Assembly (NCBI GenBank): GCA_014843695.1 | Contig: CM026400.1 | Coordinates: 29,765,563-29,829,562, forward strand | Source: Archivesica marissinica | Taxonomy: Eukaryota > Mollusca > Bivalvia > Venerida > Vesicomyidae | Length of the DNA: 64,000 bases | Reading direction: 5' to 3' | In this document: positions 5,326 to 45,000 of the stretch, piece after piece | How positions within the stretch are numbered: the first letter of the stretch is position 1 | Layout of the letters: each line of letters starts with the position of its first letter | Notes under the pieces: model-generated | The model's database searches: none | What the model saw: the letters and a program-made list of their open reading frames with translations, nothing else | What the model was told of the DNA's origin: nothing | Translations under genes and position numbers: made by a program

Positions 5326-5372
5326 ATGCAGCACTAAATACAACACGACAACATTTACAATGCAACACCGTT

Positions 5373-5539: not shown

Positions 5540-5621
5540 CTGAAAAAGAAATTATTGACGTCAAATTTGGTGTGTTTTTCACCTGAACAAAAAAATTCAA
5601 ATTTTTTTTTTTACAAAATCC

Positions 5622-5828
5622 AGTAAGTTTAAACTTTATTTATTTTACAGTTTAATCACTCTCGTTGGCGCGGATGAAAGCGTATATGTGGTCATTCTTG
5701 TTGGAGGCAACCGGAGTAAACCCACTGTCCGATCTGGTGACCGTACCATCGCACATACGTCCTGGTCCGAGGATCGAACCCGGGTTGCATTGGTGAGAAG
5801 CGAGCACGATAACCACATCGTTAATCAG
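5622..5828 (-). mobile_element. SINE family A (tRNA-derived), minus strand
   Basis: The minus strand carries CTCGCTTCTCACCAATGCAA and GGTTCGATCC (B box), then the tail GAGAGTGATTAA. The A-box end is diverged. Confidence 0.8.
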
Positions 5829-5962
5829 AGGTAGGGTGGGGGATTTACTGTGGGGTTGGGTGGGGGACTTACTGTGGAGGTAGGGTGGGGGACTTACTGT
5901 GGAGGTAGGGTGGGGGACACACACGCACGCACGCACGCACACACACACACACACACACACCA
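5824..5962. repeat. G-rich 25-bp array (4 units) and (CA/CG)n microsatellite
   Basis: Units GTAGGGTGGGGGACTTACTG run into a CACACACGCACGC tract. Confidence 0.9.
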
Positions 5963-12702: not shown

Positions 12703-13143
12703 TTTTATATAGTACAGTACAATGAAGATCTGCTCGCATGATTTTATATAGTACAGTACAATGAAGATCTGTTTGCATGATTTTATATAGTACAGTACAA
12801 TGAAGATCTGCTTGCATGATTTTATATAGTACAGTACAATGAAGATCTGCTCAGCATGATTTTATATAGTACAGTACAATGAAGATCTGCTCGGCATGAT
12901 TTTATATAGTCCAGTACAATGAAGATCTGCTCGCATGATTTTATATAGTACAGTACAATGAAGATCTGCTCAGCATGATTTTATATAGTACAGTACAATG
13001 AAGATCTGCTCGCATGATTTTATATAGTACAGTACAATGAAGATCTGCTCAGCATGATTTTATATAGTACAGTACAATGACTTATCTGCTCAGCATGATT
13101 TTATATAGTACAGTACAATGAAGATCTGCTCGCATGATTTTAG
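12703..13143. repeat. Second, short block of the same 39-bp minisatellite (11 units)
   Basis: The same unit as at 846-4897. It starts abruptly inside the previous array, where CACTGAA meets TTTTATATAGTACAG, and ends at GATTTTAGAAATCCGACCAT as the first block does. It is the 3' boundary of the duplicated PMPCA terminal block. Confidence 0.95.
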
Positions 13144-13307
13144 AAATCCGACCATACAAAATTACATACAGAAACCTTTTCTCGGGACATCGCGCTCAAC
13201 TTGCCGAATTCTCGTACCATACAACAGTACTTGGGGGGGGTTTAAAGTCGATACAACAGCCTAGGTAATGATGCTGTCTCTCCGACTATTATTGCTGGAG
13301 GAAGATT

Positions 13308-13478
13308 CTTGACATTTCGGAATTCTCTCAACATTTAGCAATTCCCGACATATCGGAACTCTCGACATTTCGGAATTCTCAACATTTAGTAATTCCCGAC
13401 ATTTTGGAATTCTTAACATTTCTGAATTCTCAACATTTATCAATGCCCGACATTTTGGAATTCTCGACATTCTCGTAC
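13308..13478. repeat. 18-19-bp AT-rich array downstream of the proximal PMPCA terminal exon
   Basis: The same array as at 5063-5325 with about 9 units, so copy number differs between the duplicated blocks. Confidence 0.9.
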
Positions 13479-13529
13479 CATAATGCAGCACTAAATACAA
13501 CACGACAACATTTACAATGCAACACCGTT

Positions 13530-13699
13530 TCATCTGCCAAACAATGAAAACTTCTTCTTGGTTTTTCCCTTATTAAGTAGCATATTTTGTACAGAATCCA
13601 GATCCGGTAAATGTTTTAGTGTTCCATATCCGGCTACCGACGGCTTCGAGCGCAACATTCTCTCGGCAACTCTCTGTATATCGGAAGCTGTGATTTTTC
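13530..13699 (-). CDS. PMPCA: PMPCA exon 12, terminal exon (proximal copy)
   Basis: The acceptor is ATTTCTATTTCAG|GA. Two bases complete the Gly codon begun in exon 11, then 55 codons and TGA. The frame contains [20 protein letters not shown] and ends [11 protein letters not shown], matching the PMPCA C-terminus. It has one more AAG (Lys) codon than the distal copy. It is the first terminal exon met by transcription. Confidence 0.92.
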
Positions 13700-16600
13700 C
13701 TGAAATAGAAATTATTGGTGTTTTTCACCTGAACAAAAAAATACATTTTTACAAAATCCAGTAAGTTTAAACTTTATTTATTTTACATTTTAATCACTCT
13801 CGTTGGCGCGGATGAAAGCGTAAATGTGGTCATTCGTGTTAGAGGGGACCGGAGTACCCGGAGAAAACCCACTGTCCGATCTGGCGACCACCGTACCATC
13901 GCATATACTTCCTGGTCCGAGGATCGAACCCGGGTTGCATTGGTGAGAAGCGAGCGCGATAACCACATCGTTAATCCGAGGTAGGGTGGGGGATTTACTG
14001 TGGGGGTAGGGTGGGGGACTTACTGTGGAGGTATGGTGGGGGACTTACTGTGGAGGTAGGTGGGGGACTTACTGTGGTGGTAGGTGGGGAACTTACTGTG
14101 GGGTAGGGTGGGACTTACTGTGGAGGTAGGGTGGGGGACTTACTGTGGGGGTAGGGTGGGGGACGTACTGTGAGGGTAGGGTGGGGGGACTTACTGTGGA
14201 GGTAGGGTGGGGGACTTACTGTGGAGGTATGGTGGGGGACTTACTGTGGTGGTAGGTGGGGGACTTACTGTGGAGGTAGGGGATTTACTGTGGAGGTATG
14301 GTGGGGACTTACTGTGGTGGTAGGGTGGGGACTTACTGTGGAGGTATGGTGGTGGGACTTACTGTGGAGGTATGGTGGGGGACTTACTGTGGAGGTATGG
14401 TGTGGGACTTACTGTGGGATAGGGTGGGGAACTTACTGTGTGATAGGGTGGGGGACTTACTGTGGAGGTAGGGTGTGGGACTTACTGTGGTGGTATGGTG
14501 GGGGACTTACTGTGGTGGTAGGTGGGGACTTACTGTGGAGGTAGGGTTATGGACTTACTGTGGCAGTAGGGTGGGGGACTTACTGTGGAGGTAGGGTGTG
14601 GACTTACTGTGGAGGTAGGGTGGGGGACTTACTGTGGGGGTAGGGTGGGGGACTTACTGTGGAGGTAGGGTGGGGACTTACTGTGGAGGTAGGGTGGGGG
14701 ACTTACTGTGGGGGTATGGTGGGGGACTTACTGTGAGGGTAGGGTGGGGTTCAAGGTCACGGGTAGGTTGAGAAGTTACTTTGGGTGTAGAGAATTATTC
14801 CTCAGATGTGTATACTAAGATTCACAGAAATAACTTTTGACGGTTTTTAAGAAATGATGTGCTATGAACTATGTTTGGCCAAAAGTCAGGTTCAATGTCA
14901 CTCTTGGGGGATGGGACTTATTAGGGTGGGGTCGAGCTGAGCATGGGACTTATCAGGGGGCGTCGAGAGGAGCATCTATGTGAGAAAGGGTTAAAGTACA
15001 TATTGCAAACTGTACCAATAAGATCATAGTAATGCTGTGGTTGTTTCCGATGCCCACTGGCCAGCACCTGGCGCCCTACGTCCTCGAACACAACTGGTCT
15101 CTGCTCCAGATTCATCATTAACATCGACTGTAACTGCGTCTTCGCACGATCCAGCTCAACCTGGTGGGTCAAAAAAGGCAATTAGGCAAGAAACGTCGCG
15201 ACTCTCCAGCAATAATTGATGGAGGAAAGCCCTGGGTGCCCATCGGAGCAGTATTCCAGGCATGGACAGGCACCCGAGTAGAACCACCAACCTTCTGCAA
15301 GCCGGATAGTTTTCTCGCTAGGATTCTACACCCAAGTGGGATTTGAACCTACAGCGGTGAAATGTAAGTGATTTGAAGGCCATGTCCATAACCACGCTGC
15401 CACGGAGGCCCCTCAGGCAACTTGTTGAATTCACGTATCAATGGATACATAAGCTACAATCTGTAATCCAGATCTAGAAAAACTTGCATTTGTGCCCAAA
15501 TAGTTTTTGAGAAACTCGCAAATTACAAAGGGCCATAACTCAGCAATTAGGAAATTGTGGAGAGGGATAAAATAGAACTGGTAATAGACACATTGTTTGC
15601 ATTAGTTCATAATAAAATTACAGCCATAACTCGGCAATTACAAAACACCGGACGGGATAAAATATAACCGGTAATAGACACATTGTTTGCATTAGTTCGT
15701 AATAAAATTACAGCCATAACTCGGCAATTACAAAACTCCGGACGGGATAAAATATAACCGGTAATAGACACATTGTTTGCACTAGTTTGTCTTCCACAAT
15801 ACCTACATCATGTATCTGTCCAGCAGTGTTGATCAGCTCCTGTGAAATCACCTCTGTTAACTCCCTCAGCTGCAATATCAGAAGTGTTTGCATTTCAGTT
15901 GTCTCAGATGCAGGAAATATAAATAAATATAACGGCCAGTAAGACAAGCAAGAGTTTGCATAGCAACTCTACTATAAATGCGCAATGCATCTACTATAGT
16001 TCATTTATAGAAATGTGTGTGTTTTAAGTTTATTTATCGTCGCTACCGGTTGTCCATTTGAGGGACGCCTCCTGAAGAGATTAGTCATTTTAGATTTATG
16101 GAGGATAGTGCAATGATACAGAGAGAGATCCATTCCAGTCTCCTCTGGTTCTTTTACGTGCACAGTGTAAAGCACCGACACAAGACCTTGGTTTAAAGTC
16201 CCATCAGAAAGACTGTTAATTTTATTAGGGTCAGACGAACCTGCGATCCCTGGATTACCAGTCCAACATGTTAACCAGTGGACTACAGATCCGTCTGTAA
16301 GATAAATGGTATACCAGTATATGCATAGTCTGTAAGATAAATGGTATACCAGTATATGCATAGTCTGTAAGATAAATGGTATACCAGTATATGCATAGTC
16401 TGTAAGATAAATGGTATACCAGTATATGCATAGTCTGTAAGATAAATGGTATACCAGTATATGCATAGTCTGTAAGATAAATGGTATACCAGTATATGCA
16501 TAGTCTGTAAGATAAATGGTATACCAGTATATGCATAGTCTGTAAGATAAATGGTATACCAGTATATGCATAGTCTGTAAGATAAATGGTATACCAGTAT

Positions 16601-19600
16601 ATGCATAGTCTGTAAGATAAATGGTATACCAGTATATGCATAGTCTGTANNNNNNNNNNNNNNNNNNNNNNNNNNNNNNNNNNNNNNNNNNNNNNNNNNN
16701 NNNNNNNNNNNNNNNNNNNNNNNNNNNNNNNNNNNNNNNNNNNNNNNNNNNNNNNNNNNNNNNNNNNNNNNNNNNNNNNNNNNNNNNNNNNNNNNNNNNN
16801 NNNNNNNNNNNNNNNNNNNNNNNNNNNNNNNNNNNNNNNNNNNNNNNNNNNNNNNNNNNNNNNNNNNNNNNNNNNNNNNNNNNNNNNNNNNNNNNNNNNN
16901 NNNNNNNNNNNNNNNNNNNNNNNNNNNNNNNNNNNNNNNNNNNNNNNNNNNNNNNNNNNNNNNNNNNNNNNNNNNNNNNNNNNNNNNNNNNNNNNNNNNN
17001 NNNNNNNNNNNNNNNNNNNNNNNNNNNNNNNNNNNNNNNNNNNNNNNNNNNNNNNNNNNNNNNNNNNNNNNNNNNNNNNNNNNNNNNNNNNNNNNNNNNN
17101 NNNNNNNNNNNNNNNNNNNNNNNNNNNNNNNNNNNNNNNNNNNNNNNNNNNNNNNNNNNNNNNNNNNNNNNNNNNNNNNNNNNNNNNNNNNNNNNNNNNN
17201 NNNNNNNNNNNNNNNNNNNNNNNNNNNNNNNNNNNNNNNNNNNNNNNNNNNNNNNNNNNNNNNNNNNNNNNNNNNNNNNNNNNNNNNNNNNNNNNNNNNN
17301 NNNNNNNNNNNNNNNNNNNNNNNNNNNNNNNNNNNNNNNNNNNNNNNNNNNNNNNNNNNNNNNNNNNNNNNNNNNNNNNNNNNNNNNNNNNNNNNNNNNN
17401 NNNNNNNNNNNNNNNNNNNNNNNNNNNNNNNNNNNNNNNNNNNNNNNNNNNNNNNNNNNNNNNNNNNNNNNNNNNNNNNNNNNNNNNNNNNNNNNNNNNN
17501 NNNNNNNNNNNNNNNNNNNNNNNNNNNNNNNNNNNNNNNNNNNNNNNNNNNNNNNNNNNNNNNNNNNNNNNNNNNNNNNNNNNNNNNNNNNNNNNNNNNN
17601 NNNNNNNNNNNNNNNNNNNNNNNNNNNNNNNNNNNNNNNNNNNNNNNNNGGTGGGGTTCAAGGTCACGGGTAGGTTGAGAAGTTACTTTGGGTGTAGAGA
17701 ATTATTCCTCAGATGTGTATACTAAGATTCACAGAAATAACTTTTGACGGTTTTTAAGAAATGATGTGCTATGAACTATGTTTGGCCAAAAGTCAGGTTC
17801 AATGTCACTCTTGGGGGATGGGACTTATTAGGGTGGGGTCGAGCTGAGCATGGGACTTATCAGGGGGCGTCGAGAGGAGCATCTATGTGAGAAAGGGTTA
17901 AAGTACATATTGCAAACTGTACCAATAAGATCATAGTAATGCTGTGGTTGTTTCCGATGCCCACTGGCCAGCACCTGGCGCCCTACGTCCTCGAACACAA
18001 CTGGTCTCTGCTCCAGATTCATCATTAACATCGACTGTAACTGCGTCTTCGCACGATCCAGCTCAACCTGGTGGGTCAAAAAAGGCAATTAGGCAAGAAA
18101 CGTCGCGACTCTCCAGCAATAATTGATGGAGGAAAGCCCTGGGTGCCCATCGGAGCAGTATTCCAGGCATGGACAGGCACCCGAGTAGAACCACCAACCT
18201 TCTGCAAGCCGGATAGTTTTCTCGCTAGGATTCTACACCCAAGTGGGATTTGAACCTACAGCGGTGAAATGTAAGTGATTTGAAGGCCATGTCCATAACC
18301 ACGCTGCCACGGAGGCCCCTCAGGCAACTTGTTGAATTCACGTATCAATGGATACATAAGCTACAATCTGTAATCCAGATCTAGAAAAACTTGCATTTGT
18401 GCCCAAATAGTTTTTGAGAAACTCGCAAATTACAAAGGGCCATAACTCAGCAATTAGGAAATTGTGGAGAGGGATAAAATAGAACTGGTAATAGACACAT
18501 TGTTTGCATTAGTTCATAATAAAATTACAGCCATAACTCGGCAATTACAAAACACCGGACGGGATAAAATATAACCGGTAATAGACACATTGTTTGCATT
18601 AGTTCGTAATAAAATTACAGCCATAACTCGGCAATTACAAAACTCCGGACGGGATAAAATATAACCGGTAATAGACACATTGTTTGCACTAGTTTGTCTT
18701 CCACAATACCTACATCATGTATCTGTCCAGCAGTGTTGATCAGCTCCTGTGAAATCACCTCTGTTAACTCCCTCAGCTGCAATATCAGAAGTGTTTGCAT
18801 TTCAGTTGTCTCAGATGCAGGAAATATAAATAAATATAACGGCCAGTAAGACAAGCAAGAGTTTGCATAGCAACTCTACTATAAATGCGCAATGCATCTA
18901 CTATAGTTCATTTATAGAAATGTGTGTGTTTTAAGTTTATTTATCGTCGCTACCGGTTGTCCATTTGAGGGACGCCTCCTGAAGAGATTAGTCATTTTAG
19001 ATTTATGGAGGATAGTGCAATGATACAGAGAGAGATCCATTCCAGTCTCCTCTGGTTCTTTTACGTGCACAGTGTAAAGCACCGACACAAGACCTTGGTT
19101 TAAAGTCCCATCAGAAAGACTGTTAATTTTATTAGGGTCAGACGAACCTGCGATCCCTGGATTACCAGTCCAACATGTTAACCAGTGGACTACAGATCCG
19201 TCTGTAAGATAAATGGTATACCAGTATATGCATAGTCTGTAAGATAAATGGTATACCAGTATATGCATAGTCTGTAAGATAAATGGTATACCAGTATATG
19301 CATAGTCTGTAAGATAAATGGTATACCAGTATATGCATAGTCTGTAAGATAAATGGTATACCAGTATATGCATAGTCTGTAAGATAAATGGTATACCAGT
19401 ATATGCATAGTCTGTAAGATAAATGGTATACCAGTATATGCATAGTCTGTAAGATAAATGGTATACCAGTATATGCATAGTCTGTAAGATAAATGGTATA
19501 CCAGTATATGCATAGTCTGTAAGATAAATGGTATACCAGTATATGCATAGTCTTTGCTCCACTCAAATAAAAGAAACCATAAACACGATATGCTAGACAA

Positions 19601-22600
19601 GACGCGATATGCTAGACCCGACGATATGCTAGACCAGACGATATGCTAGACCAGACGATATGCTAGACCAGACGATATGCTAGACCAGACGATATGCTAG
19701 ACCGTGATATGCTAGACCAGACGATATGCTAGACCAGACGATATGCTAGACCAGACGATATGCTAGACCAGACGATATGCTAGACCAGACGATATGCTAG
19801 ACCAGACGATATGCTAGACCCGACGCGATATGCTAGACCAGACGCGATATGCTAGACCAGACGATATGCTAGACCAGACGGGTGCATTTATTAGAAGAGT
19901 AAATTAATAACGGGACATGAGACCTCGGTTTAAAGTCTCATCTCAAAGACTTAATTTTATTAGGGCCAAGCGGGGGATCGAACCTGCGATCCCTGGTTAA
20001 CCACTGGACTACAGATCCGTCTGCATCTATAGTTTGAAGCTGAACTAGCTCTATGTATCCCCAGTGACCCTATTATCGGTGAATACTAATTAGCAATGAT
20101 ATTAGCAGTGATCGTGGAAGTCGCGTTCGCTTCAGGTCCGAAGTTCGAGCCCCGCTGGAGCCGATACGATTGTGCCCTTAGGCAAGGCATATAAATTCCA
20201 CGTTGCCTCTTCTCTCTCCCTCAATAGAAGTTGTAATAACTTGTTTCGCAATTGAGCTAAAATAAATTTGTATAAACAAGCAATGATATTAGAATAAATG
20301 TAAATGAATCACACACGCGCATATTGTGTTTACTAGTCATTATTACCGTCGGTGTTCCACAACGAGCTGAAATGTCATTTCTACGGGTATATTTACCTTC
20401 ATTTATTCAACACTATTCTACTTTCATTACTCTCGTATGTTTTCGTTCGCGTAGTCAATAATTAGGTGAATTTCAATGACTTTGTTAAGTATCGGCTGCA
20501 ATTGACATTTGTAAAGTGCCCGACCCCTCGCATGTGACGTAACTCTTCTCTATCTCCTCTTGGGGATTAAGTACAGTGAAACCTGTGTTAATGGTCACCT
20601 CCATTAAGCAGCCAACCTGTATTAAGCAGCCAGATTCCCGATTCCCAATATGCTGTCTTATTATACATTTGACTTCTATTAAGCAGCCACCTGTGCTATG
20701 CAGCCACTTTCTGTAGTTCCCTTGGCTGGCTGCTTAAGGCAGGTTTGACTGTACATCAGGAATGTGGTCTCGAGAGTGATTAATACAAGTTGTAAGAACT
20801 TGTTTCGCAATCGAGCTAAACTAAATTTGTATAAACTAATTTATTTGCACAGCCTCTTTTTGAAACACACATACACAGGTTATTGCTTATGTCACCGGTA
20901 ATCGGTATACCCAGGATAAACGATAAAATCTTTAGGTTGAAACCATCCGTTTGTTGGTTTAGTTTATACAAATTTATTTTAGCTCGATTGTGAAACAAGT
21001 TCTTATAACTTATATTAATCACTCTAGAGACCTCATTCCTGATGGAATCCATCGCCACGAGGGAGAGAGAATTTAAATACCTTGCCTAAGGGCACAATCG
21101 GCCCGGCTCCAGCGGGGCTCGAACTCCAGACCTTTCGCACCTGAAGCGAACGAGCATCCACTGCGCTAACACGACTTCTGTTTGTTGGTTATGGGGGTCT
21201 ACAGTCGCACAGACAACTTAGGGCCCACGGTGACTCTCCAGCTTGTTATTGGTGGAGGAACGTTTCCCTCCGAACAGTATTTCAGGTACTGGCGTGCACC
21301 CATGTAGAACCACTGAATTTCTGCAAGCCAGCTATCTGACATGAAATAATTTGACACCCCCATGGTGAGAGGCAAGTGATTTGAAGTCAATGACCGTAAG
21401 CTCCCGTTAAACGTATCAACAGTAACAAAACAAACAAATGTACCATTAACACACTAGTTAATATATATATATATATATACAATGACTAAAGTAACAAACC
21501 CGGGTGGGGTGCGAACTGGCTTGAATTAGAAACATCCCTGTATCTTCAAACGCATGGTTCATGGCTGTAGCACTTTCTATCCAGTGATATCTACAACAAA
21601 CAATAATGGCTGTAGCACTTTCTACCCAGTGATATCTACAACAAACAATAATGGCTGTAGCACTTTCTACCCAGTGATATCTACAACAAACAATCAATCA
21701 TGGCTGTAGCACTTTCTACCCAGTGATATCTACAACAAACAATCAATCATGGCTGTAGCACTTTCTACCCAGTGATATCTACAACAAACAATCAATCATG
21801 GCTGTAGCACTTTCTATACAGTGATATCTACAACCAACAATCAATCATGGCTGTAGCACTTTCTATACAGTGATATCTACAACAAACAATCAATCATGGC
21901 TGTAGCACTTTCTATACAGTGATATCTACAACCAACAATCAATCATGGCTGTAGCACTTTCTATACAGTGATATCTACAACAAACAATCAATCATGGCTG
22001 TAGCACTTTCTACCCAGTGATATCTACAACAAACAATCAATCATGGCTGTAGCACTTTCTATACAGTGATATCTACAACCAACAATCAATCATGGCTGTA
22101 GCACTTTCTACCCAGTGATATCTACAACAAACAATCAATCATGGCTGTAGCACTTTCTATCCAGTGATATCTACAATAAACAATCAACAGTATGGATCAT
22201 GGCTGTAGCACTTTCTACCCAGTGATATCTACAAGAAACAATCAATCATGGCTGTAGCACTTTCTATCCAGTGATATCTACAAGAAACAATCAACAGTAT
22301 GGATCATGGCTGTAGCACTTTCTACCCAGTGATATCTACAAGAAACAATCAATCATGGCTGTAGCACTTTCTATCCAGTGATATCTACAAGAAACAATCA
22401 ATCATGGCTGTAGCACTTTCTATCCAGTGATATCTACAAGAAACAAACAATCATGGCTGTAGCACTTTCTATCCAGTGATATCTACAAGAAACAATCAAT
22501 CATGGCTGTAGCACTTTCTATACAGTGATATCTACAACAAACAAACAATCATGGCTGTAGCACTTTCTACCCAGTGATATCTACAAGAAACAATCAATCA

Positions 22601-25600
22601 TGGCTGTAGCACTTTCTATCCAGTGATATCTACAACAAACAATCAATCATGGCTGTAGCACTTTCTATCCAGTGATATCTACAACCAACAATCAATCATG
22701 GCTGTAGCACTTTCTATACAGTGATATCTACAACCAACAATCAATCATGGCTGTAGCACTTTCTATCCAGTGATATCTACAAGAAACAAACAATCATGGC
22801 TGTAGCACTTTCTATCCAGTGATATCTACAACCAACAATCAATCATGGCTGTAGCACTTTCTACCCAGTGATATCTACAAGAAACAAACAATCATGGCTG
22901 TAGCACTTTCTATCCAGTGATATCTACAACCAACAATCAATCATGGCTGTAGCACTTTCTATCCAGTGATATCTACAACAAACAATCAATCATGGCTGTA
23001 GCACTTTCTATCCAGTGATATCTACAACCAACAATCAATCATGGCTGTAGCACTTTCTACCCAGTGATATCTACAAGAAAGAAACAATCATGGCTGTAGC
23101 ACTTTCTATCCAGTGATATCTACAACAAACAAACAATCATGGCTGTAGCACTTTCTATCCAGTGATATCTACAACCAACAATCAATCATGGCTGTAGCAC
23201 TTTCTATCCAGTGATATCTACAACAAACAATCAATCATGGCTGTAGCACTTTCTACCCAGTGATATCTACAAGAAAGAAACAATCATGGCTGTAGCACTT
23301 TCTATCCAGTGATATCTACAACAAACAAACAATCATGGCTGTAGCACTTTCTATCCAGTGATATCTACAACCAACAATCAATCATGGCTGTAGCACTTTC
23401 TATCCAGTGATATCTACAACAAACAATCAATCATGGCTGTAGCACTTTCTATCCAGTGATATCTACAACAAACAATCAACAGTATGGATCATGGCTGTAG
23501 CACTTTCTACCCAGTGATATCTACAAGAAACAATCAATCATGGCTGTAGCACTTTCTATCCAGTGATATCTACAAGAAACAATCAACAGTATGGATCATG
23601 GCTGTAGCACTTTCTACCCAGTGATATCTACAAGAAACAATCAATCATGGCTGTAGCACTTTCTATCCAGTGATATCTACAAGAAACAATCAATCATGGC
23701 TGTAGCACTTTCTATCCAGTGATATCTACAAGAAACAAACAATCATGGCTGTAGCACTTTCTATCCAGTGATATCTACAAGAAACAATCAATCATGGCTG
23801 TAGCACTTTCTATACAGTGATATCTACAACAAACAAACAATCATGGCTGTAGCACTTTCTATCCAGTGATATCTACAAGAAACAATCAATCATGGCTGTA
23901 GCACTTTCTATCCAGTGATATCTACAACAAACAATCAATCATGGCTGTAGCACTTTCTATCCAGTGATATCTACAACCAACAATCAATCATGGCTGTAGC
24001 ACTTTCTATACAGTGATATCTACAACCAACAATCAATCATGGCTGTAGCACTTTCTATCCAGTGATATCTACAAGAAACAAACAATCATGGCTGTAGCAC
24101 TTTCTATCCAGTGATATCTACAACCAACAATCAATCATGGCTGTAGCACTTTCTATCCAGTGATATCTACAAGAAACAAACAATCATGGCTGTAGCACTT
24201 TCTATCCAGTGATATCTACAAGAAACAAACAATCATGGCTGTAGCACTTTCTATCCAGTGATATCTACAACCAACAATCAATCATGGCTGTAGCACTTTC
24301 TATCCAGTGATATCTACAAGAAACAAACAATCATGGCTGTAGCACTTTCTATCCAGTGATATCTACAACCAACAATCAATCATGGCTGTAGCACTTTCTA
24401 TCCAGTGATATCTACAAGAAACAAACAATCATGGCTGTAGCACTTTCTACCCAGTGATATCTACAACAAACAATCAATCATGGCTGTAGCACTTTCTACC
24501 CAGTGATATCTACAACAAACAATCAATCATGGCTGTAGCACTTTCTACCCAGTGATATCTACAACAAACAATTGACCAGTGTAGAATCTACAACACTGTG
24601 ATCCTGTATCCTTTCCTCCATATTTATTGTAATTAAATTTGATCCTCGTTAGTGTCACATATTTCTAATATGAAATAGGCACTACCTATCAACGTGGGAA
24701 ATACCAAAAGTCTAAATAAATTACTGAAATAGACATTATAGAAGGAATACGACATTCCTGCGACTTGTTTACATTTGGAATGCATTGTCCCCATTTGTCC
24801 CACGTTGTCTGTCTATCTTAATTGAATTACTCGAGATGTCGATTCACACCTCTGTTATCTAAGTCTTTTAGGGACATGTCTACATCCCCGCGAGGGATTC
24901 GACATTAGAGGAAGATAGATATAGTCTTTCATGCTCAAAATATATACGTTGTTTTCTACATCCCCGCGAGGGATTTGACATTAGAGGAAGATAGATAGAT
25001 AGTCTTTCATGTTCAAAATATATACGTTGTTTTCTACATCCCCGCGAGGGATTCGACATTAGAGGAAGATAGATAGTCTTTCATGTTCAAAATATATACA
25101 TTGTTTTCTACATCCCCGCAAGGGATTCGACATTAGAGGAAGATAGATAGTCTTTCATGTTCAAAATATGTTGACATTCCTACGTGCGTTTCAACATCCG
25201 CTGTTGTTTCACGCATGCGCGTTGTGCGTGTTTACATTTCGTTTGTTGATAAACAATTTGTGTATACGATGGTGTATATTTATTGGATTATCGTTTCTGG
25301 GCGACTATTTCGATTTTTGTAAACACACGTATATTAGTATTTATATTTTCCAAAAAACATCCTTTATTACGATATATAGTGCTGCTTAACCAAAGATCAG
25401 CTGGAAGTCGTCGTATCGCAGTGGTAGCACGTTCGCTTCAGGTGCGAAAGCCCCTCCTACCAGTTCAAGCGCAGCTGTAGCCGATACAATCATGCCCTTA
25501 GACAAGCAAGGCATTTAAATTCCACGTCGCCTCTTCTCTCTCCCTCGTGACGATGGATTCCATCAGGAATGAGGTCTCGAGAGTGATTGGTTTAAACATA

Positions 25601-28600
25601 TTTATTCATTCATAATGTACAGTACATATCTATTGTATATAGAATGAAAATAGATTTAATCAAGAGTGATTGATATAAGTTGTAAGAACTTGTTTCGCAA
25701 TCGAGCTAAAATAAATTTGTATAAACAAATGGCATAAGAGGAAAACCAAATCGATAGAAATTCAAAAATGTTGAATAAAAAGTGACAAGTACTTACTGAT
25801 TGAGAACATTAAGGTAGAGTCTGGTGTACATCCCCTTCCCTGGTCCGCCCGCAGAGAACGACCCGCCACCTCCCAGTAACATATTCAGCACGCAATATGC
25901 GACAAAATCATCATCCTTGTGTGAACAACTTTCTAATCCGATGACTAAATGTGCGAGCTCCGGCATCGGGGTCGGTCCCAGGCTCACTTCTGATAGATCT
26001 GCTTCTTCCTAAAAATGTAAGCAAGAATTAACGTGCATAACATGCCTTCCTTTGGAATAAATAAGTTTGGTTTGTTAGTTCAGGTTTTACACCTGCATCA
26101 TCACCATTTTGAGCTATATCGTCAGCGGGCAGTTTACCTAACAACACCTTTCCATGGCAGGCTCCAGCGGTTAACCAGTACTTGGATGCACCAACCTCCG
26201 TAGAAACTGCCAACTTGATGATAGGTTACCATGGTATACAAGTAAGATTTGCAGGGTTCCCTCTGTCTGAATGTTTGTCTGCGCCACTTCTGTCACCAAT
26301 TGAAAAAACTTGGAGCCAACTAAGAGCCATATAGTTCACAAATAAATATTTGAAGCCATGTATTTGACAAAACATATGCAAAAAAAAAAGGAAAATAAAG
26401 TTGCACCAAATATTTTCGCCAATTCACAAAACTTAGCGCCAATATTTGTTTTTTGTCGCAATTGGTGCCATTGGCGACTGACAGCGGGAACCCTGATTTG
26501 TCCCAGAAATATCCAAACTTGCCATGTTATGCACATTTTTATTTTTCAGTTTCAGGCCCCATTTATTATCTCCGTCAATGACTAGTTGGGGTCGGAGAGT
26601 CATCCCCTACTAGCTTTACATTTTTTCCAATGTATACTAATTTATTTTAGCTCGATTGCGAAACAAGTTCTTACAACTAATATTAATCACTCTCGAGACC
26701 TCATTCCTGATGGAATCCATCGCCACGAGGGAGAGAAGAGGCAACGTGGAATTTAAATGCTTTACCTAAGGGCACAATCGTAAGGGCTCCAGTGGGGCTC
26801 AAACTCTGGGCCTTTCGCACCTGAAGCGAACGCGCTACCACTACGCTATCACGACTTCCACTTTAGTAATAGGAAAGATATTTGAGTTTATAAAAATTTT
26901 AACCTGAATTTTCTATGTTAAAAGGGACATAACTGTGAAAATACTGTAGACAGAATCATGCAACTTTTCCTACTTGTGGATTGTCCCTGTAAACAATTAT
27001 TCCAAGTTCTAAGTAAATATCTTTAGTAATGGGTAAGATATTTTGGTTTATAAATACTAACCTCTGGAAACACAGACAGACAGACGGACACACCCAAAAT
27101 TGCATATTAAGTAGCTATTCCTTTGTTCTCAATAGCAACATAAACAGAATTTATAGCCACATAACCCAAGACAACAAAGACCTATATTGTTCTCTTAGCA
27201 ACACAAGTACTATTTCATGGGTGAGCTCGGACGGACGGATGGACGATGGGTAAACCTATCGTCCCATCCAATGGTTACTTATCTGTAAAAATTTGTTATC
27301 AATTAATTAACATGATTTTGATAAAATTTATCATACAGCAACACTGAACATCTGGTTAAGGAACAACAGTAAAAACAAAGGATTCCAACTAAAAGGACAA
27401 ATATACATTTCTGGATAAATCAACACGTTTCTGCCAAGGGAGGTAATAGAAATACAAGCAACATCTCTCATTACAAGTTGAAAACATGTTTTAACAACTT
27501 ATATTAATCACTCTCGTTGGCACGGATGAAAGCGTAAATGTGGTCATTCGTGTGGGAGGAAACCGGAGTACCCGGAGAAAACCCACCTGTCCGATCTGGC
27601 GACCACCGTACCATCTCACATACTTCACGTTCCGAGGATCGAACCCGGGTTGCATTGGTGAGAAGCATACTTGAAAACATTTACCTTAACAATGCCTCCA
27701 GTGTACTGTGCCAGGGAATTATCGCTACCCTTCGACGGATCTATCACATCTGGCGACCACCGTACCATCTCACATACTACACGTTCCGAGGATCGAACCC
27801 GGGTTGCATTGGTGAGAAGCATACTTGAAAACATTTACCTTAACAATGCCTCCAGTGTACAGTGCCAGGGAATTATCGCTACCCTTCGACGGATCTATCA
27901 CATCTGGCGACCACCGTACCATCTCACATACTTCACGTTCCGAGGATCGAACCCGGGTTGCATTGGTGAGAAGCATACTTGAAAACATTTACCTTAACAA
28001 TGCCTCCAGTGTACTGTGCCAGGGAATTATCGCTACCCTTCGACGGATCTATCACATCTTTCTCCTCGTACCATATCGGCTGCTTCTTCGTAAAATACTT
28101 CTCCGCCATATCGACTAGTGTATCATGGTCCATACCGACCCCGGCTAACACGAGTCTCCGGGGATCATAGAAACTGTTCATGTATGTGTAGAGAGTAGTG
28201 CTATCTATTTTGTTGATGTTGTCGGCAGGACAGATTTTTGGTAGACCTAGCGTGTTGTGTCTGTATGCAGCCTGGAACCATATTATAATCATCCATAAAG
28301 ATTCCGTAATTCAGAAGTTTGGGGCTGTAACTAAAGTTGTTAAAACTTGTAGCAGGGTTCCCTCTGTCTGAATGTTTATCTGCGCCACTTCTGTCGTCAA
28401 TTGAAAAACACTGGAGCCAATTTAAAAAACTTGGAGCCAACTAAGAGCCATATAGTTCACAAATAAATATTTGATGTGCCAAAAAAAACAATACAAATGA
28501 GCCAAATATGTTCGCCAATTCACAAAATTTAGCGCCAATATTTATCTTTTGTCGCAATTGGCAACCGACACCGCAGGAACCCTTTTGTAGCCCAGTTTGC

Positions 28601-31600
28601 TTCAACATATATCGACGATTTGTGTGCATGTCATAGCCTGGAATTGGATCACAATCATAGCAATCGTTAATAAACCATCAATAAACGTTACTGGGAAAAT
28701 ATTTGGTTGTTTTATTCTTTTTACCCCCCCACATATATTATGTCCCTTCTGGCGTTCCATACTTAACGTATATCGTTAGCCACTTGTATATATGTAAACT
28801 GTATATATAAATGGTCATACTAACAATTTGCATGTGACATGTTCTAACCAATCACTATTGTTGGTCACTTTCAGGTCAGCTTTGGAATAGATGATAAATC
28901 GCCATTTTGGGCATATATTAACAATACATTGTTACTACTGTATTGGATATATACCCAGGAAAGGAAGTACAGAAATATTATAAACGTAATCCATTATAAA
29001 TTATTGCGCCAAGTCTTCACTCAAACCCACCCACTCGAGATCCATATACCCATTAGGAGGTGTAAGAGTCAGGGTATGACAAGGGACACAGCGACAAATG
29101 GCGCCCAACCAGTAGTGATGACTTTATTACTTAACCCATTTCACGCTGCATGCTGATCAGGATCTATGTTGTTTGCTACATAGCCAAGTGTCTTAGCAAG
29201 ATCATCTGAATAGCAAACAGCATAGAGCCTGATTAAACGGCACATTCCGTGGCGGCTGATCTGGCTCTATGTTCTTTGCACATACTGTTTGAACGGTATC
29301 CAAAATGAAATGGGCTAACATGGAATACAATATGCACGTGCGATTATGTGTGTGCTTTACGTTTATTTATCGTCGCTACCGGTTGCCCATATGACGCCGC
29401 CTGAAGAGATTAGTCATTTTAGATTTTTGGAGGATAGTGCAATGATACAGACAGAGATCCAGTCCAGAGTCTCCTCTGGTTCTTTTACATGCATGGTGTA
29501 CAGCACCGACACGAGACCTCGGTTTAACGTCCCATCATTTTATTAAGGGTCCCTGGATTACCAGTCCAGTGTGTTACCACTGGACTACAGATCTGTCTGT
29601 AACGTGCGATTAACGTCTCAAAGAGGTTATTGTTCTCTGTTGCCAATGTTGACATACATTGGACATGATGCAGATACCATACCACGAACACGGTCAGAAC
29701 CACGGTGGTGATGTGATGTCCTTAGGCAAGACCTCTTATGTGTGTGTCTGTCTGTCTGTACAACGAACTGCGTTCTATTTACTACCAATTGCCTAGCGAC
29801 TATTCACCACTAAACACAAAATGGCCGACACAGATACAGGGAAAGATGTATGACACAGACATTTGATTTTTCTTTAACGGTTTCCATAGTTATTTGGGGA
29901 AAATCTTAAATAAATGTGTACCTACGAGATACAAGTGGAGTCGTCATAAACGGATGAAGGTATCAGCATTAACTTGTTGCTTTTCTATAGTCGCAGAAAC
30001 ATGTGACAATAACGATGTAAACAAATATTCAACGGAGAACTACCATACTGATATAGAATGACCAGAATTACACACAGTTTACAGAATACCATGCATAATA
30101 AATCTAGGTTAAAAAAGTCGGTTAAATAAACATGAACAAACCATATTTGAATATCCGAGAAGTTGACTGCGAGATATTAGCCCGAGGCTACCAACTCTCG
30201 ACCGACCTTCGTATAGAAAAGCAATATTTGCATTCAATGAATAATATTTACAACTATTTCAGTACACTGACCTCATACTGATGTTTTTGTAGCAAGTTTA
30301 ATACTACTGGTTTGCTTGATTCACAACTAAAACGTGAGAGGAAAAAAAAAAAAAAAAAAAAATTCTCGACTGACCGACGAGGCTAATTATGATGCATATA
30401 CAATCTGAAACCAAACTTCAAAGCCACCAATTTATTCAACAATGTTTTTAAACTAGTTAATATATAATCGAACAATTTTCAGTTAAATTCTACGGAGGTA
30501 TGATTATATGTTGTCTTCTGATAACAGAAATGTAACATTGTAATACCATATTTCAGTTTGAAACTCCTCGCTGGAACAGGTAGAATGTGTTTCTAAAAAT
30601 GATCGCCCGCAATGCTAGAATTAAAATCGAGGCCAGAATCTTCGACCTATGCCCGGAAGCCGCGTTTAAATTTCCGTGGGATCAATGAGATTTATTCCAG
30701 CAATCTGGGGGAATACTAAAATTTAAATATAGTTGAGAATTGGTAGCAGTCGGGAATTGGTAGCGGTCGAGAATTGGTAGTGGTCGAGAATTGGTAGCGG
30801 TCGAGAATTGGTAGCGGTTGAGAAGTGATAGCGATTGAGAATTGGTAGCGGTCGAGAATTGGTAGCGGTTGAGAATTAGTAGCGATTGAGAATTGGCAGC
30901 GGTCGAGAATTGGTAGCAGTCGAGAATTTGTACCCTGATGCAACACTATACCTCGGAAATGACTGTACGCTGTAGTCACTTACATAAGTACACTGAGGCG
31001 ACACTATTTCTCGGGAATGACTGTACGCTGTAGTCACTTACATAAGTACACTGAGGCGACACTATTTCTCGGAAATGACTGTACGCTGTAGTCACTTACA
31101 TAAGTACCCTGAGGCGACACTATTTCTCGGAAATGACTGTACGCTGTAGTCACTTACATAAGACATATCTCTACGATACCTACTTACAGCAAATATCATT
31201 TCTGTCACAAGTGCATCTGGTATCGGGTTCATTGTCTGCGATTCTAACTCAAATCCTATCGCTTGTCGGGCAAACTCAATCTGAAAATCATACATTATGT
31301 TATATTTCGGGTTTTACGCCTGCATCAGCACCATTTCAGGCTATATCGCCGGCGGGCAGTTTACCTAACAACACCTTTCCTGGGCAGGCTCCAGCGGTTA
31401 ACCAGTACGTGGGTGCACCAACCTCCGTAAGAAACTGCCAACTTTTTCATATCAATGAGACACGGCCTGAGCGGGGCTCGAACCCGTGACCATCAGTGAT
31501 GATAGGTTACAGTGGTATACAAGTCAGTGACCTTAACCAGTCGACCACGGAGGCGGACTGAAAATCATACAGAACTGATTTTGTTTGGTTTGTGGGTGTT

Positions 31601-34600
31601 AAAGTAGCACAAATAGCTTAGGTCATACGGCGACCCTCAAGTTATTATTGGTGGAGGAAGACCCTGGGTGCCCCTTGAGGCACAAACCGGCACACGGGTA
31701 GCACCACCGATATTCCACAAGCCTGCTGGATAGCTTGCTCACTTGAACAACTATAACTGGTCTGTATACAGTACTTACCTCTGTATCGTCTATAACTGGT
31801 CTGTATACAGTACTTACCTCTGTATCGTCTATAACTAGTATGTATACAGTACTTACCTCTGTATCATCTATAACTGGTCTGTATACAGTACTTACCTCTG
31901 TACCGTCTATAGCTGATCTGTATACAGTACTTACCTCTGTATCGTCTATAACTGATCTGTATACAGTACTTACTTCTGTATCGTCTATAACTGGTCTGTA
32001 TACAGTACTTACCTCTGTACCGTCTATAACTGGTCTGTATACAGTACTTACCTCTGTATCGTCTATAACTAGTATGTATACAGTACATACCTCTGTATCA
32101 TCTATAACTGGTCTGTATACAGTACTTACATCTGTATCGTCTATAACTGGTCTGTATACAGTACTTACTTCTGTATCGTCTATAACTGGTCTGTATACAG
32201 TACTTACCTCTGTACCGTCTACAACTGGTCTGTATACAGTACTTACCTCGGTACCGTCTATAACTGGTCTGTATACAGTACTTACCTCTGTATCGTCTAC
32301 AACTGGTCTGTATACAGTACTTACCTCGGTATCGTCTAAAACTGGTCTGTATACAGTACTTACCTCTGTATCGTCTATAACTGGTCTGTATACAGTACTT
32401 ACCTCTGTATTGTCTATAACTAGTCTGTATACAGTACTTACCTCTGTACCGTCTATAACTGGTCTGTATACAGTACTTACCTCTGTATCGTCTATAACTG
32501 GTCTGTATACAGTACTTACCTCTGTATCGTCTATAACTGATCTGTATACAGTACTTACCTCGGTATCGTCTATAACTGATCTGTATACAGTACTTACCTC
32601 TGTATCGTCTATAACTGGTCTGTATACGACATCAGACAGAATGTCTAACGCTATCGGTAGTCCTGTCGTCTCGGCTGACATAGCCTGGTCTGTATACAGT
32701 ACTTACCTCTGTATCGTCTATAACTGGTCTGTATACGACATCAGACAGAATGTCTAACGCTATCGGCAGTCCTGTCGTCTCGGCTGACATAGCCTGGTCT
32801 GTATACAGTACTTACCTCTGTATCGTCTATAACTGGTCTGTATACGACATCAGACAGAATGTCTAACGCTATCGGCAGTCCTGTCGTCTATAACTGGTCT
32901 GTATACAGTACTTACCTCTGTATCGTCTATAACTGGTCTGTATACGACATCAGACAGAATGTCTAACGCTATCGGCAGTCCTGTCGTCTATAACTGGTCT
33001 GTATACAGTACTTACCTCTGTATCGTCTATAACTGGTCTGTATACGACATCAGACAGAATGTCTAACGCTATCGGCAGTCCTGTCGTCTCGGCTGACATA
33101 GCATATATCATTGTGTCTCTATAAAAACAATAGAAACACCTAGTAACTGACATGGACTGGTCCATGATATTCTTAGACCAATAAATGAATAAGAAAATTA
33201 CATTCGGACCAGTTCATTTATCAAGATGGGTAATTTTGTCTAAAATTAGTAATACTACTTGCAAATAGTGCAGATCCTGATGAGACGGCTCGTCACGAGC
33301 CGGCTCTACACTTTTTGTAAGCCTATATAGAGGTCTGTGGTGTTGAAAGGGTTAATATATGTCATTGTACGGCACTCTACAATATTTATATATAGCTACA
33401 ATAGAGAGGGAGTGGTGGGGGTGGGGAGGGAGTGGTGGGGGTGACCCGAGCAAGATGATACCCCACACCTTTTTATTAGACCCTCTGGCTCTTATGCATA
33501 CCTATGCAGATCACAGTACATATGACAGTGACTTTGGAGCCTCAAGGGGGAATTCAGAATTACCCGTTTGCTCCATTTACATACAGTAGTACAAAGGCAT
33601 GCAACACATGGACGCCGGAAATCTGGCGGAAGTACAAAGTCTGGTCTTCTCGGCGTGAAAGTCTGACTAATCCAATGTGTCGAACAGAAAAATTGAATAG
33701 TGTGTCTGAGTTGTCTGCCTTTGTGTACACTTACCTAGAGCTCCGACAATCACAGATCCCACCTATCTGGAGCTCTGACAATCATAGATCCCACTTACCT
33801 GGAGCTCTGACAATCACGATCCAACTTACCTGGAGCTCTGACAATCAAGATCCCACTTACCTGAGCTCCGACAATCACAGACCCCACTTACCTGGAGCTC
33901 CGACAATCACAGACCCCACTTACCTGGAGCTCCGACAATCACAGATCCCACTTACCTGGAGCTCTGACAATCACAGATCCCACTTATCTGGAGCTCTGAC
34001 AATCACAGATCCCACTTACCTGGAGCTCTGACAATCACAGATCCCACTTACCTGGAGCCCTGACAATCACAGATCCCACTTACCTGGATTTTGACAATCA
34101 CAGATCCCACTTACCTGGATTTTGACAATCACAGATCCCACTTACCTAGAGCCCTGACAATCACAGATCCCACCAATCTTCTCCAGCTCCTGATTAATCT
34201 TATCACGGTCTGCATAATTTGTTGTTTTCTGTAAAACATTAACACACCAAAAATGACCAAACAATTATAAGCAAGCAAAATAATGAACTTTTGAAATTCC
34301 ACGATATATTGTCACTGTTAAGAGTTAATCATATTATAATAGACGGGTCAGTGTTTAACATAGACTGTACTTATCATAGAGCAACAAAAAAAAACACCTG
34401 TGTTTACGGTTTCCCGACGGACCCTGATTTTTTTTACCCCAACCCGACCCTGAATTTTTTTATATAATATTTTGAAGAAATTAGAACAAAATATTTCAAA
34501 AATTTTGTTGTTCACATGTTGCTGTGCCCAAGAATATTGAGGGGGGGAAAAATCCCTAACGGCCAACCCAATTTTTATTTTGCAACAGTAAACACGTGTT

Positions 34601-42000: not shown

Positions 42001-45000
42001 CAAACAACCTGGAGAGATATGGGAACCTTGTCTGAGCTTAATAACTGCAAATGTCCTCTAAATTTTGTCGGACATCTGACAGTCTAGAATGTACGTTTCC
42101 AGAGCTTTATATACTGAGGTGCGGACAGCCTTGCTGCGGCTGAGAATGTTCTCAATTGAGAAAGTTTTACCAACCCCGGCAATTGCGGCCCGCAAGACAG
42201 CCCGATGAGTCTCGTGGTCGCGACAGTCCAGCAGAAAATGTTCAGTAGTGTATCTGACAACGCACTTGGGACAAACTGGATTTAGATTAAGTATATGTTG
42301 GCCACGGTTGCCTGCCAACAGGTTTGTCCCAAGTCTCAGCCGAGTGATGCACTTATCTATTCTTAAAGACTTAGAATATTGCACCGGACGGCTGAACCCC
42401 ACGGAGCTCCTTTTGTAGGTTTGTTTGAAAGGCCTATCCAGGAGTGAGCGGCCCCAACGTAGATTTGCTTGGGCCTTAACAATGGAGCAGATCTCCGTGG
42501 GTGCGAGCCTTACACTATTCTCCACATTAGTGTGCTCCAGGCCAGACTTGGCAGCCCTGTCCGCCAGCTTGTTTCCAGTGATGCCAATATGTGCTGGACA
42601 CCATGCTATGGTAACCTTGAGGTTTTGGTTCAAGCCCTCATTGTATAACTTGACTATATCAGTAATTAGATCTGGTCTAGACTTACTATTCCTTGATTGT
42701 AAGGAGACCAGTGATGAGAGTGAATCAGATAATATCACATTTTTCTATGAATTATTATCTACTATCCAGCACATTGCTTTCTTAATTGCAATTAGCTCAG
42801 CCGTATAGATGGATGCCTTATCGGTTAACCTTTCTACATATTCACATTGTAGGGATGGAATGACTACGGCTGCAGCTACCTTGCCAGAGTCGGGGCATTT
42901 TGATCCATCTGTATATATTTTTAGGTGTTGACTGTAATTTTCCTCTATGTGGCATAGAACTTCCAATCTAGCGAGGTGAATTAGATCGGTTTTCTTCACT
43001 TTTTCTGATAAAGATATATCTATCACTGGATCTGACTGTGTCCAGGGCGGTATCGAGTCAGGCCTGAAGTCTGCCACTTGGACACCCTCGAGACCGAACC
43101 CAGCCTCAAGTTCCTGGACATAGGCTCCGAAAGGGAGTGGTTTGTCACTGAATTGGGCCTTGCGGTAGTATCCGGTCCCGTAGATCACGTTCACGGGGTT
43201 GTCATCTTTTCTTGTTTGGGCCCTGGCCCAATATTTAACGCATTGAGCCTGGCGTCGGATCTCCAAAGGCTCAATCCCTGACTCAATTTCAAGCATATAA
43301 CTCGGGGTTGTGGGAAGGGCTCTCAGAGCTAGTCTCAGGGCGGAATTCTGTAACCTGTCTAGAGATTTGAGATGAGTGGGGCATGCACTAAAATAGATTT
43401 GTGCACCATAATCTATTTTTGAACGTATTAAAGACATATACAGTAGCAAGAGGCTTTTTTTGTCTGAACCAAAATCTGTGCCACTTAGCATACGCATAAC
43501 CTGAATGTCTTTTTGGCACCTTGTGACTAAGATCTTTAATGTGTTGTGCGAATGAGAGCTTACGGTCCAAAAGCATGCCTAAAAAACGCACAACTTTCTC
43601 AAATTTAATTTGTGTGCCGCCTAAATTTACGTTCAAACTGTGCTGTTGTAAATTTCCAGAAAAGCTCTGAGATACTGGAAGCAAGATCCTGTTATTCCAT
43701 GTTCTCTTAGTTTGTGAAGAACCCCAAAGTGCCAGGTTAGGTCGAAAGCGGCCTGAAGGTCTTGAAAGATTGCCAGCACTGATCGATGTCGGTTTTTAGC
43801 TGCGAGCACGTCATGCTGGAGCCGAGCAAGTTGGTCTAAAGTGCTCCTACCCTTTCGAAAGCCAGACTGAAAGGGACTGATAATCTTTTTGGTTTCTATA
43901 AAGTGTTCTAAACGTTCCTTAACCATCCCCTCAGGCAATTTCCCCTGAGTGAGATGTAAGGCTAATAGGCCTATAAGATTTTGGATCAATTTTGTCTTTT
44001 CCTGGTTTTGGGATAGGAATAACACAAGCTTCCCTCCAGACTAATGGATAGGCCCCATCCCTCCACACCTGGTTGAACAAGTTCAACCAGATTTTCAAGG
44101 CCGTGTCTGGCATATGCTTGAACATCTGGTAAGATATTTTATCTGGCCCCGCGGAGGAATTACTCCTGCTATCTATACATTTCTTGAGTTCCGAAAGAGT
44201 AAAAGGTAAGTTTAAAGGAATATTTTGTTCCCCCGGCTCTTGTAGAATTTGATTATTTTGTTCCTCAAATTATTTTGAAATTTTAGAGTTTCTGGTAGAA
44301 AGAACACTTGAGTCACTAGAGACTTTGGAATAGTGTTTTACCAGCATTTGAGCCTTTTCAAAGGGAGTTTTAGCTAATGATTCTCCTACTTTAATTAAAG
44401 GTATAGGGCCTGATTTTTTCCCTTTTATTCTGCTTTTATTATCAAACATAACTGATTCACAGAATTCCTGCCAGTTTGCTGTTTTAGCATTTAAAATTGT
44501 CGTTTTGGCTAGTTTTTCCGCCATTTTTAAATTATCTAGGTTGACCGGGCAGGTATTTCGTTTGACCTGATTGAGTGCTGTTTTACGGCCCTTTACCGCA
44601 TTATTGCAGGCATCATTCCACCACGGAACCTTTTTGTGTTTTAATGACTTACCAGAAGAGACAGTGAAAGCCTGTTCAGCCACGTGTAGAAACCCGATAT
44701 TTAAGTTTTCTGTGAAGGCATTTATATCTAAAGAGTAGACTTCCTCGAGGCTGATCTCCCTACATAACTGGTTAAATTTGGCCCAGTCAGCCTTATCATA
44801 GTTGAATATAGTATTGGACTGATTTTTTTTGTGGCTCAGAGTTATTTAGTCCAATAGTAATGATTTGTGGGAAGTGGTCAGAGCCCCAATTGTCTGAGTA
44901 CACTCCCCATTCTGCAATGACCTAGAGGTTAGGGGAAGCGATAGTAAGGTCTATTGAAGAGTAGGTACCATGCGCTTTATTTATTCGTGTACTTGACCCA

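Follow-up and report, generated by a model that had tools for sequence, protein, structure and literature searches.

Four exon edges of a single clam gene are occupied by tandem arrays whose repeated unit carries the splice junction itself, which raises the question of whether such arrays are anchored at splice sites or have come to lie there by chance. The gene, PMPCA, is located in a window of 64,000 nucleotides, the whole stretch of Archivesica marissinica DNA analysed here. A sequence-only reading of this window had pointed out arrays of 32, 39, 49 and 154 bp at exons 4, 5, 7 and 9 of PMPCA. We defined the gene with homologues in tblastn searches, a splice model, translation and Pfam M16 domains. 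The gene and the exons considered below, the latter placed by tblastn and the splice model, are as follows.

13530-40998, minus strand: PMPCA (mitochondrial processing peptidase alpha), 12 exons
34146-34228, minus strand: PMPCA exon 4
33016-33118, minus strand: PMPCA exon 5
31188-31280, minus strand: PMPCA exon 6
27993-28271, minus strand: PMPCA exon 7
21500-21590, minus strand: PMPCA exon 9

With the splice model and its translation, 528 codons could be read from exon 1 as a single uninterrupted frame, the stop being the last of them, and the start adjoins an N gap at 41001. Exons 2-9 displayed 83% identity to Mercenaria, and the protein, spliced over the introns with arrays, aligned over its full length with homologues. 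The four arrays were all found where they had been reported.

33728-34173, minus strand: 32-bp array, about 14 units; unit made of the last 25 bp of exon 4 and a GTAAGTG donor; 28 bp lie inside exon 4
31751-33100, minus strand: 39-bp compound array at exon 5; 85 bp lie inside exon 5
27594-28059, minus strand: 154-bp array, 3 units plus 4 bp (AGAT); 67 bp lie inside exon 7
21559-24572, minus strand: 49-bp array, about 61 units; unit made of a pyrimidine tract, an AG acceptor and the first 32 bp of exon 9

The four arrays are independent of one another, and both sides of introns are affected, as had been proposed, with three arrays at donors (exons 4, 5 and 7) and one at an acceptor (exon 9). 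The arrays had been described as starting exactly at the junctions. A PMPCA junction is indeed contained in the unit of all four, but the units straddle it, and 28-85 bp of exon lie inside the arrays. The exon-5 array had been taken as a simple 39-bp repeat; units of this length do make up 22.5 copies at 31751-32627 (the last 29 bp of exon 5 followed by GTAAGTACTG), but the array is compound, and its exon-adjoining part consists of 100- and 109-bp units, to which the exon contributes as much as about 85 bp. The 154-bp unit joins the exon 7 end (63-67 bp) and its donor to a piece of a SINE-like dispersed repeat from the intron, which occurs at five other places in the window. The 49-bp array contains a higher-order block repeat of 1292 bp. 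Each of the four arrays occupies one intron end only, the far side being about 470-1600 bp of other sequence.

Further arrays are present in the gene.

30930-31162, minus strand: 58-bp array, 4 units; begins 25 bp inside the intron past the exon 6 donor and does not contain the junction
18471-18694, minus strand: 90-bp array, 2.5 units; begins 19 bp past the exon 10 donor (exon end 18714) and does not contain the junction
17818-17882, minus strand: 32-bp array, 2.1 units; 40 bp past the exon 11 donor (exon end 17923), junction not contained
13978-14749, minus strand: 25-bp array in intron 11; unit with sense GTAAGT, 28 occurrences

The 58-bp unit holds a GTAAGT distinct from the modelled exon 6 donor. 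The sequence of the 90-bp array is repeated at 15564-15787 via contig overlap.

In favour of misassembly having created or inflated the arrays, the scaffold is imperfect in this gene: the 1904 bp of 14743-16646 recur with 100% identity at 17650-19553, on the other side of a 1000-N gap, which comes after a tandem array. On the other hand, the units differ from one another and carry structured variants, the four arrays lie away from both gaps, and arrays make up about half of the stretches sampled elsewhere in the genome. An assembly artefact is thus the least probable of the explanations considered, and we give it almost no weight. In the duplicated exon-12 segment, other arrays differed strongly in copy number. 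Among 16 assembly matches there was no second copy of exons 4-9, and only exon-12-like copies were found outside the gene; consequently, the assembly shows no second PMPCA allele with which copy number could be compared.

We then considered whether chance is sufficient. The PMPCA arrays have the properties of minisatellites, namely head-to-tail copies, units of about 10-150 bp and internal divergence, for which counts in four arrays gave 0.03-0.04 substitutions per site and copy. Chance placement on four junctions had been judged hard to believe. Array density was estimated from 20 evenly spaced, arbitrary stretches of 10 kb on contigs C1-C4 (8191 N included), in which 111 arrays covered 47-49% of the sequence. 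At this founder density, 0.71-0.93 spanning arrays are expected per 22 junctions, which does not support the judgement that chance is hard to believe. PMPCA alone has a modest excess, the four observed comparing with 0.7-1.0 expected (P=0.003-0.015; P=0.016-0.054 when dispersed repeats were removed). The sequence-only reading had asked for an enrichment beyond this gene, and here the test comprised the 20 stretches and one other gene, clathrin heavy chain, within a single fetched 40-kb stretch. We used 20 of its 21 refined introns, leaving out the poorly aligned junction of the last two matches; 27 matches were listed, and the count covers the exons inside the 40 kb. No clathrin junction was spanned (0/40, 1.66 expected; P of none 0.17). 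With the two genes pooled, four spanning arrays stood against 2.1-2.7 expected (P=0.16-0.28), so that the excess of PMPCA was no longer significant in this comparison with one further gene.

Taking these results together, we consider that the PMPCA arrays are probably 'mirage'-type minisatellites derived from junction-spanning duplications, with no anchoring at splice sites required, and assign this reading a probability of roughly 0.77. Short stretches with a splice junction inside them by chance would have been duplicated in tandem, at least partly between matches of a few bases. In agreement with such founder matches, the 154-bp array ends with 4 bp (AGAT) beyond 3 units, the 32-bp array with 3 bp (GTG) beyond 14 units when five deleted bases are allowed for, and the 58-bp array with 1 bp beyond 4 units. 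We infer this mechanism of tandem duplication for the founders. The duplicated stretches may then have expanded through slippage or unequal exchange, as would the many other arrays of this genome; diverged copies and a block repeat such as that of 1292 bp are usual for minisatellites. A tandem duplication at a donor or acceptor would keep one complete junction flush against the exon body, and if the spliceosome picks this flush copy, the others would become intronic and the protein would be unaltered. As the protein is unchanged in that case, junction arrays could survive, while arrays arising within exons would mostly be purged by selection. With a very high rate of array birth, several could be expected in one gene.

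The sites within the arrays were examined with respect to frame. At all four arrays, the exon-proximal junction was intact and its use led to the open PMPCA frame, which fits the earlier proposal that arrays are tolerated owing to the working splice sites in their units; the exon-proximal site is, judging from the frame, presumably the one spliced. Past exons 4, 5 and 7 there were 35 further donor-like sites (34 within the arrays), and ahead of exon 9 there were 60 further acceptor copies. These numbers could be taken to suggest that array length or decoy sites control PMPCA isoforms, and two of the acceptor copies, 45 and 90 bp upstream, do leave the frame open. However, none of the 35 donor-like sites gave an open frame, and splice motifs had at best a small advantage in upkeep over other parts of the unit. 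A functional splicing switch of this kind would therefore be very surprising.

Concerning the upkeep of these sites, 2 of the roughly 14 units in the 32-bp array had an altered GT. Among the 39-bp units at exon 5, the GT showed no changes, the overall rate there being 0.032 per site per copy. The AG of the 49-bp array also showed none, yet substitutions there were confined to 6 of 49 positions. AAG|GTAAAT was present in 3/3 units of the 154-bp array. In the four arrays with GTAAGT, this hexamer was intact in 86-100% of units, whereas the hexamers of these units were on average intact in 72-90%, and by upkeep GTAAGT ranked 4th of 32, 12th of 39, 5th of 25 and 1st of 58. GTAAGT or TTGTAG was kept above the mean hexamer in 5/5 arrays checked (rank 3 of 49 in the 49-bp array), a purely descriptive tally. 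Selection on splice sites within the arrays is at most suggested by these figures, considering the loss of GT in 32-bp units and the mixed hexamer ranks.

An alternative that does invoke anchoring is that, in transcribed genes, tandem duplications preferentially start or persist at 5' splice sites, through a process tied to transcription or to U1 binding near donors. In PMPCA, 6/11 donors carried an array or had one no more than 40 bp away (1.0 expected under the null, P about 2e-4; 1.5 expected and P=0.001 with dispersed repeats removed), whereas acceptors were at chance level (1/11 in PMPCA, 1/20 in clathrin). For both genes together, donor proximity gave P=0.0002-0.012, depending on the threshold. 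Of 12 strong PMPCA arrays, 4 held GTAAGT in sense orientation (null 0.25, P=7e-5; by method, the mean under the null came to 0.09, 0.14 or 0.25) and none in antisense, and 2 of the 4 lie away from any junction (P=0.007). Together with the upkeep of GTAAGT described above, these counts favour a donor bias. Against it, the choice of motif and of distance threshold came after the inspection of PMPCA, and clathrin alone was not significant (3/20 donors, 1.5 expected, P=0.17; 1/20 against 1.1 expected for arrays of score >=200). Moreover, arrays of the genome sample displayed no GTAAGT enrichment (1/111, 1.4 expected), and neither the altered GT in 32-bp units nor the hexamer ranks give a clear sign of selection. 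GTAAGT as a general array seed, strong as it is in PMPCA, was not retained in view of the genome sample. We regard a donor bias as unlikely, and the same applies to its candidate causes, which are pausing, RNA-DNA hybrids and the retention of arrays with decoy U1 sites. In a general form, it would hold that, where animals carry very many minisatellites, tandem duplications arise or are retained with a preference for the 5' ends of introns, at and just past donors, shaped by co-transcriptional splicing, which we find doubtful. It is equally a long shot that lancelet mirages and the clam arrays represent one process, acting via U1 recognition or polymerase pausing. Several observations nevertheless speak against the reading that needs no anchoring, for which one comparison gene was read: PMPCA alone has at least four times the expected number of spanning arrays, the asymmetry between donors and acceptors is not predicted by it, sense GTAAGT exceeds the null in strong arrays of the gene, and splice hexamers are somewhat better preserved than the average hexamer.

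Introns can also be born from repeats. The potato RdRp gene is said to have gained an intron by repeat expansion or tandem duplication. In Cryptococcus (PMC2395259), introns are reported to have been gained by the same routes, and tandemly duplicated splice signals are shared with PMPCA. Once-coding repeats might accordingly have given rise to introns 4, 5, 7 and 8 by use of splice sites within them; the route has precedent in other taxa, and a splice site is present in the unit of every array. Unlike these cases, however, PMPCA shows no sign of introns created by arrays: the arrays fill one intron end with unrelated sequence opposite, and the protein aligns full-length with homologues once the introns are spliced out. 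Furthermore, the 154-bp unit includes a piece of the dispersed repeat, so intron 7, together with this repeat, is older than its array. We consider intron birth highly improbable.

The structure had been put forward as an undescribed phenomenon, but it is already known from lancelets as 'mirages'. Mirages are reported there in Adh3 (Canestro et al. 2002, via PMC3087553), the globins BflGb6 and BflGb9 (PMC3087553), and TnC and PGBD5 (PMC3902484). Their units range from about ten to 160 bp, splice signals are found in many but not all of them, and regular splicing is reported as undisturbed (PMC3087553, PMC3902484). Length instability between alleles or cells is a further trait of mirages, as reported for Adh3. 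The four PMPCA arrays are likewise minisatellite-like, with a unit spanning an exon-intron boundary, and the splice dinucleotide is again kept in many but not all units. They differ in that they occur in a bivalve, four within one gene, and reach about 61 units, as against 6 and 3 in the two BflGb6 haplotypes (PMC3087553). Splicing and instability have been examined in lancelets. Boundary repeats of human segmental duplications (De Grassi & Ciccarelli 2009, PMC2812944) similarly involve minisatellite expansion at boundaries and can alter gene structure; the cases there are paralogues in which exons have changed or introns are new, while PMPCA is single-copy and its protein frame is normal. Ordinary minisatellites and VNTRs share unit length, divergence, block repeats and short founder matches with the PMPCA arrays, whose units add an exon edge. 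Among the listed matches in open-licence literature, there was no report of mirage-like arrays in molluscs or bivalves.

PMPCA thus extends a structure known from lancelets to a mollusc, in a stronger form with four arrays per gene and up to about 61 copies. The arrays are also a warning for gene annotation in array-rich genomes like that of this clam. If the donor bias were true genome-wide, transcription or splicing would be tied to the birth of minisatellites. The PMPCA arrays suggest that mirages accompany a high minisatellite load rather than lancelets as such, and, in a housekeeping gene where dozens of junctions are nearly identical, they provide a natural test of how splicing settles on one.

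PMPCA, the gene for the mitochondrial processing peptidase alpha subunit, occupies the middle of the window (13530-40998, minus strand), and its model was derived from homologous proteins and a splice model. When spliced, the 12 exons form a single open frame through to the stop codon, and Peptidase_M16 domains (Pfam) are present in the translation. The closest homologue was from Mercenaria mercenaria (83% identity), followed by Ruditapes (75%), which suggests that the sequence belongs to a venerid-like clam. The assembly comprises 1.54 Gb in 2808 contigs, and the start of the gene adjoins an N gap at 41001. Two segments of 1904 bp (14743-16646 and 17650-19553; 100% identity) flank a 1000-N gap (16650-17649) and appear to be unmerged overlapping contig ends, so that exons 10 and 11 are present twice in the window. 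The last exon and its surroundings also occur twice (4898-5918 and 13143-14068; aligned over 1038 columns with 32 mismatches and 14 gap openings, at 84% identity), with different copy numbers in the flanking arrays by TRF (39-bp, 103 and 11; 25-bp, 3.7 and 31.6); this segment has further matches on two contigs, at C15:29850609-29850782 and C2116:11973-12143. In the public PMPCA model of Ruditapes philippinarum, divergence from its relatives was seen by eye near the counterparts of exons 9-11, possibly reflecting annotation trouble from similar arrays.

Arrays were detected with TRF and their edges inspected against the exon model. This confirmed what the sequence-only reading had reported, arrays of 32, 39, 49 and 154 bp at the edges of exons 4, 5, 7 and 9. 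Both donor and acceptor sides are indeed involved, distributed as three donors and one acceptor. The arrays had been described as starting exactly at the junctions; instead, the exon edge lies inside the unit in all four, and the arrays extend across the junctions.

Arrays at PMPCA exon edges (minus strand)
33728-34173, exon 4 donor: unit of 32 bp made up of 25 bp of exon and GTAAGTG
31751-33100, exon 5 donor: unit of 39 bp made up of 29 bp of exon and GTAAGTACTG, 22.5 copies; exon-adjacent compound units of 100 and 109 bp
27594-28059, exon 7 donor: unit of 154 bp containing 63-67 bp of exon, the donor and a piece of a SINE-like dispersed repeat
21559-24572, exon 9 acceptor: unit of 49 bp comprising the pyrimidine tract, the AG and 32 bp of exon, ~61 copies
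Exons 6, 10 and 11: three non-spanning arrays, beginning 25, 19 and 40 bp past the donors

From the TRF output and the edges, short matches were read at the founder edges of the 154-bp (AGAT), 32-bp (GTG) and 58-bp (one base) arrays; the 39-bp edge was more complex, and no clear match was found for the 49-bp array. The latter contains a block repeat that recurs every 1292 bp; its copies are 94% identical, and the longest exact repeat measures 392 bp. Such matches and the block repeat are habits of minisatellites. At 31623-32757 the 39-bp array can be read without a stop in a single frame of either strand, for 359 and 336 codons, 39 being a multiple of three.

Tandem duplication of a junction-spanning stretch would keep the first copy attached to the exon at a donor, and the last copy at an acceptor. 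The exon-joined copy gives the correct frame in 4/4 arrays. Downstream of exons 4, 5 and 7, a frameshift or stop results from every one of the 35 additional donor-like sites; one of them, at 27587, is not part of the repeated units. Two of 60 upstream acceptor copies at exon 9 (45 and 90 bp away) preserve the frame. As the other sites mostly break the frame, normal PMPCA would be made only if exon-proximal sites are used or the other products discarded.

Judged from their structure, the PMPCA arrays belong among the mirages, the name given in lancelets to minisatellite-like tandem repeats whose unit spans an exon-intron boundary, and the proposal of an undescribed phenomenon is thus not supported. 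They differ from lancelet mirages in taxon, number per gene and copy number. No mollusc report of such arrays was found in the open-licence literature searched. Lancelet mirages also include TnC and, with imperfect repeats, PGBD5 (PMC3902484).

The sequence-only reading had held chance placement hard to believe. With every array reduced to one founder unit placed randomly on PMPCA, 0.7-1.0 spanning arrays were expected against the four observed (P=0.003-0.015); removal of 5.7 kb of dispersed repeats raised the expectation to 1.1-1.5 (P=0.016-0.054). Intron 6 contains an interspersed repeat: with 40 of 161 candidates scored, a 1-kb query from it (30000-31000) gave at least 70 genome matches including itself, and the remaining matches, spread over many contigs, were 64-94% identical. 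For an independent estimate, 20 evenly spaced 10-kb stretches from four contigs (C1-C4) contained 111 arrays (period ≥10) covering 47-49% of the sequence, the share per stretch ranging from 1% to 100% (one stretch was wholly array). By the standards of animal genomes, such a load of minisatellites is very high. The founder density, 0.032-0.042, corresponds to 0.71-0.93 spanning arrays per 22 junctions. With about half the genome in arrays, such a structure is expected nearly once per PMPCA-sized gene, so that a splice-site-anchored process is not supported.

Elsewhere in the window, an intronless 484-aa open frame (57451-58905), directly following a 77-bp array, had no Pfam match; we presume a resemblance to bacterial three-Cys-motif partner proteins (TcmP). 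Several minus-strand open frames at 42058-45245, among them one that matches RNase_H and two for which the Pfam search gave nothing, have the appearance of a decayed retrotransposon.

Enrichment over shuffled positions, put forward as a test of a general mechanism, was examined in the clathrin heavy chain gene on contig C18 (40 kb fetched, 21 introns refined, 20 used) and did not appear: arrays spanned none of the 40 junctions against 1.66 expected (P of none 0.17). Both genes together have four spanning arrays at 62 junctions against 2.1-2.7 expected (P=0.16-0.28), so that the case against chance holds, modestly, for PMPCA alone but not for the pair.

The splice-donor hexamer GTAAGT was found in the sense orientation in units of 4/12 strong PMPCA arrays (null 0.25, P=7e-5) and in antisense in 0/12. 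The two such arrays away from junctions gave P=0.007, and 86-100% of units in these PMPCA arrays retain the hexamer, slightly above the average hexamer. In the genome sample it was not enriched (1/111 units, either strand, against 1.4 expected), and in clathrin the sense hexamer occurred in 1/20 units and 0/13 strong ones. GTAAGT as DNA therefore does not seem to seed arrays; a gene-specific effect is possible.

Arrays lay within 40 bp of 9/31 donors in the two genes (2.5 expected, P=0.0002), or 6/31 for strong arrays (1.8 expected, P=0.005); at 100 bp the values were 10/31 (4.0 expected, P=0.002) and 7/31 (2.8 expected, P=0.012). In clathrin, 3/20 donors (1.46 expected, P=0.17) and 1/20 acceptors had an array within 40 bp, and 1/20 donors a strong one (score ≥200; 1.14 expected). 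Since PMPCA, where the bias was first detected, supplies most of this signal, we treat the donor bias as a hypothesis rather than a result. Within its class PMPCA stands out as a rich case, perhaps a lucky one, and the donor-side bias is the sole part of the observation that might prove new.
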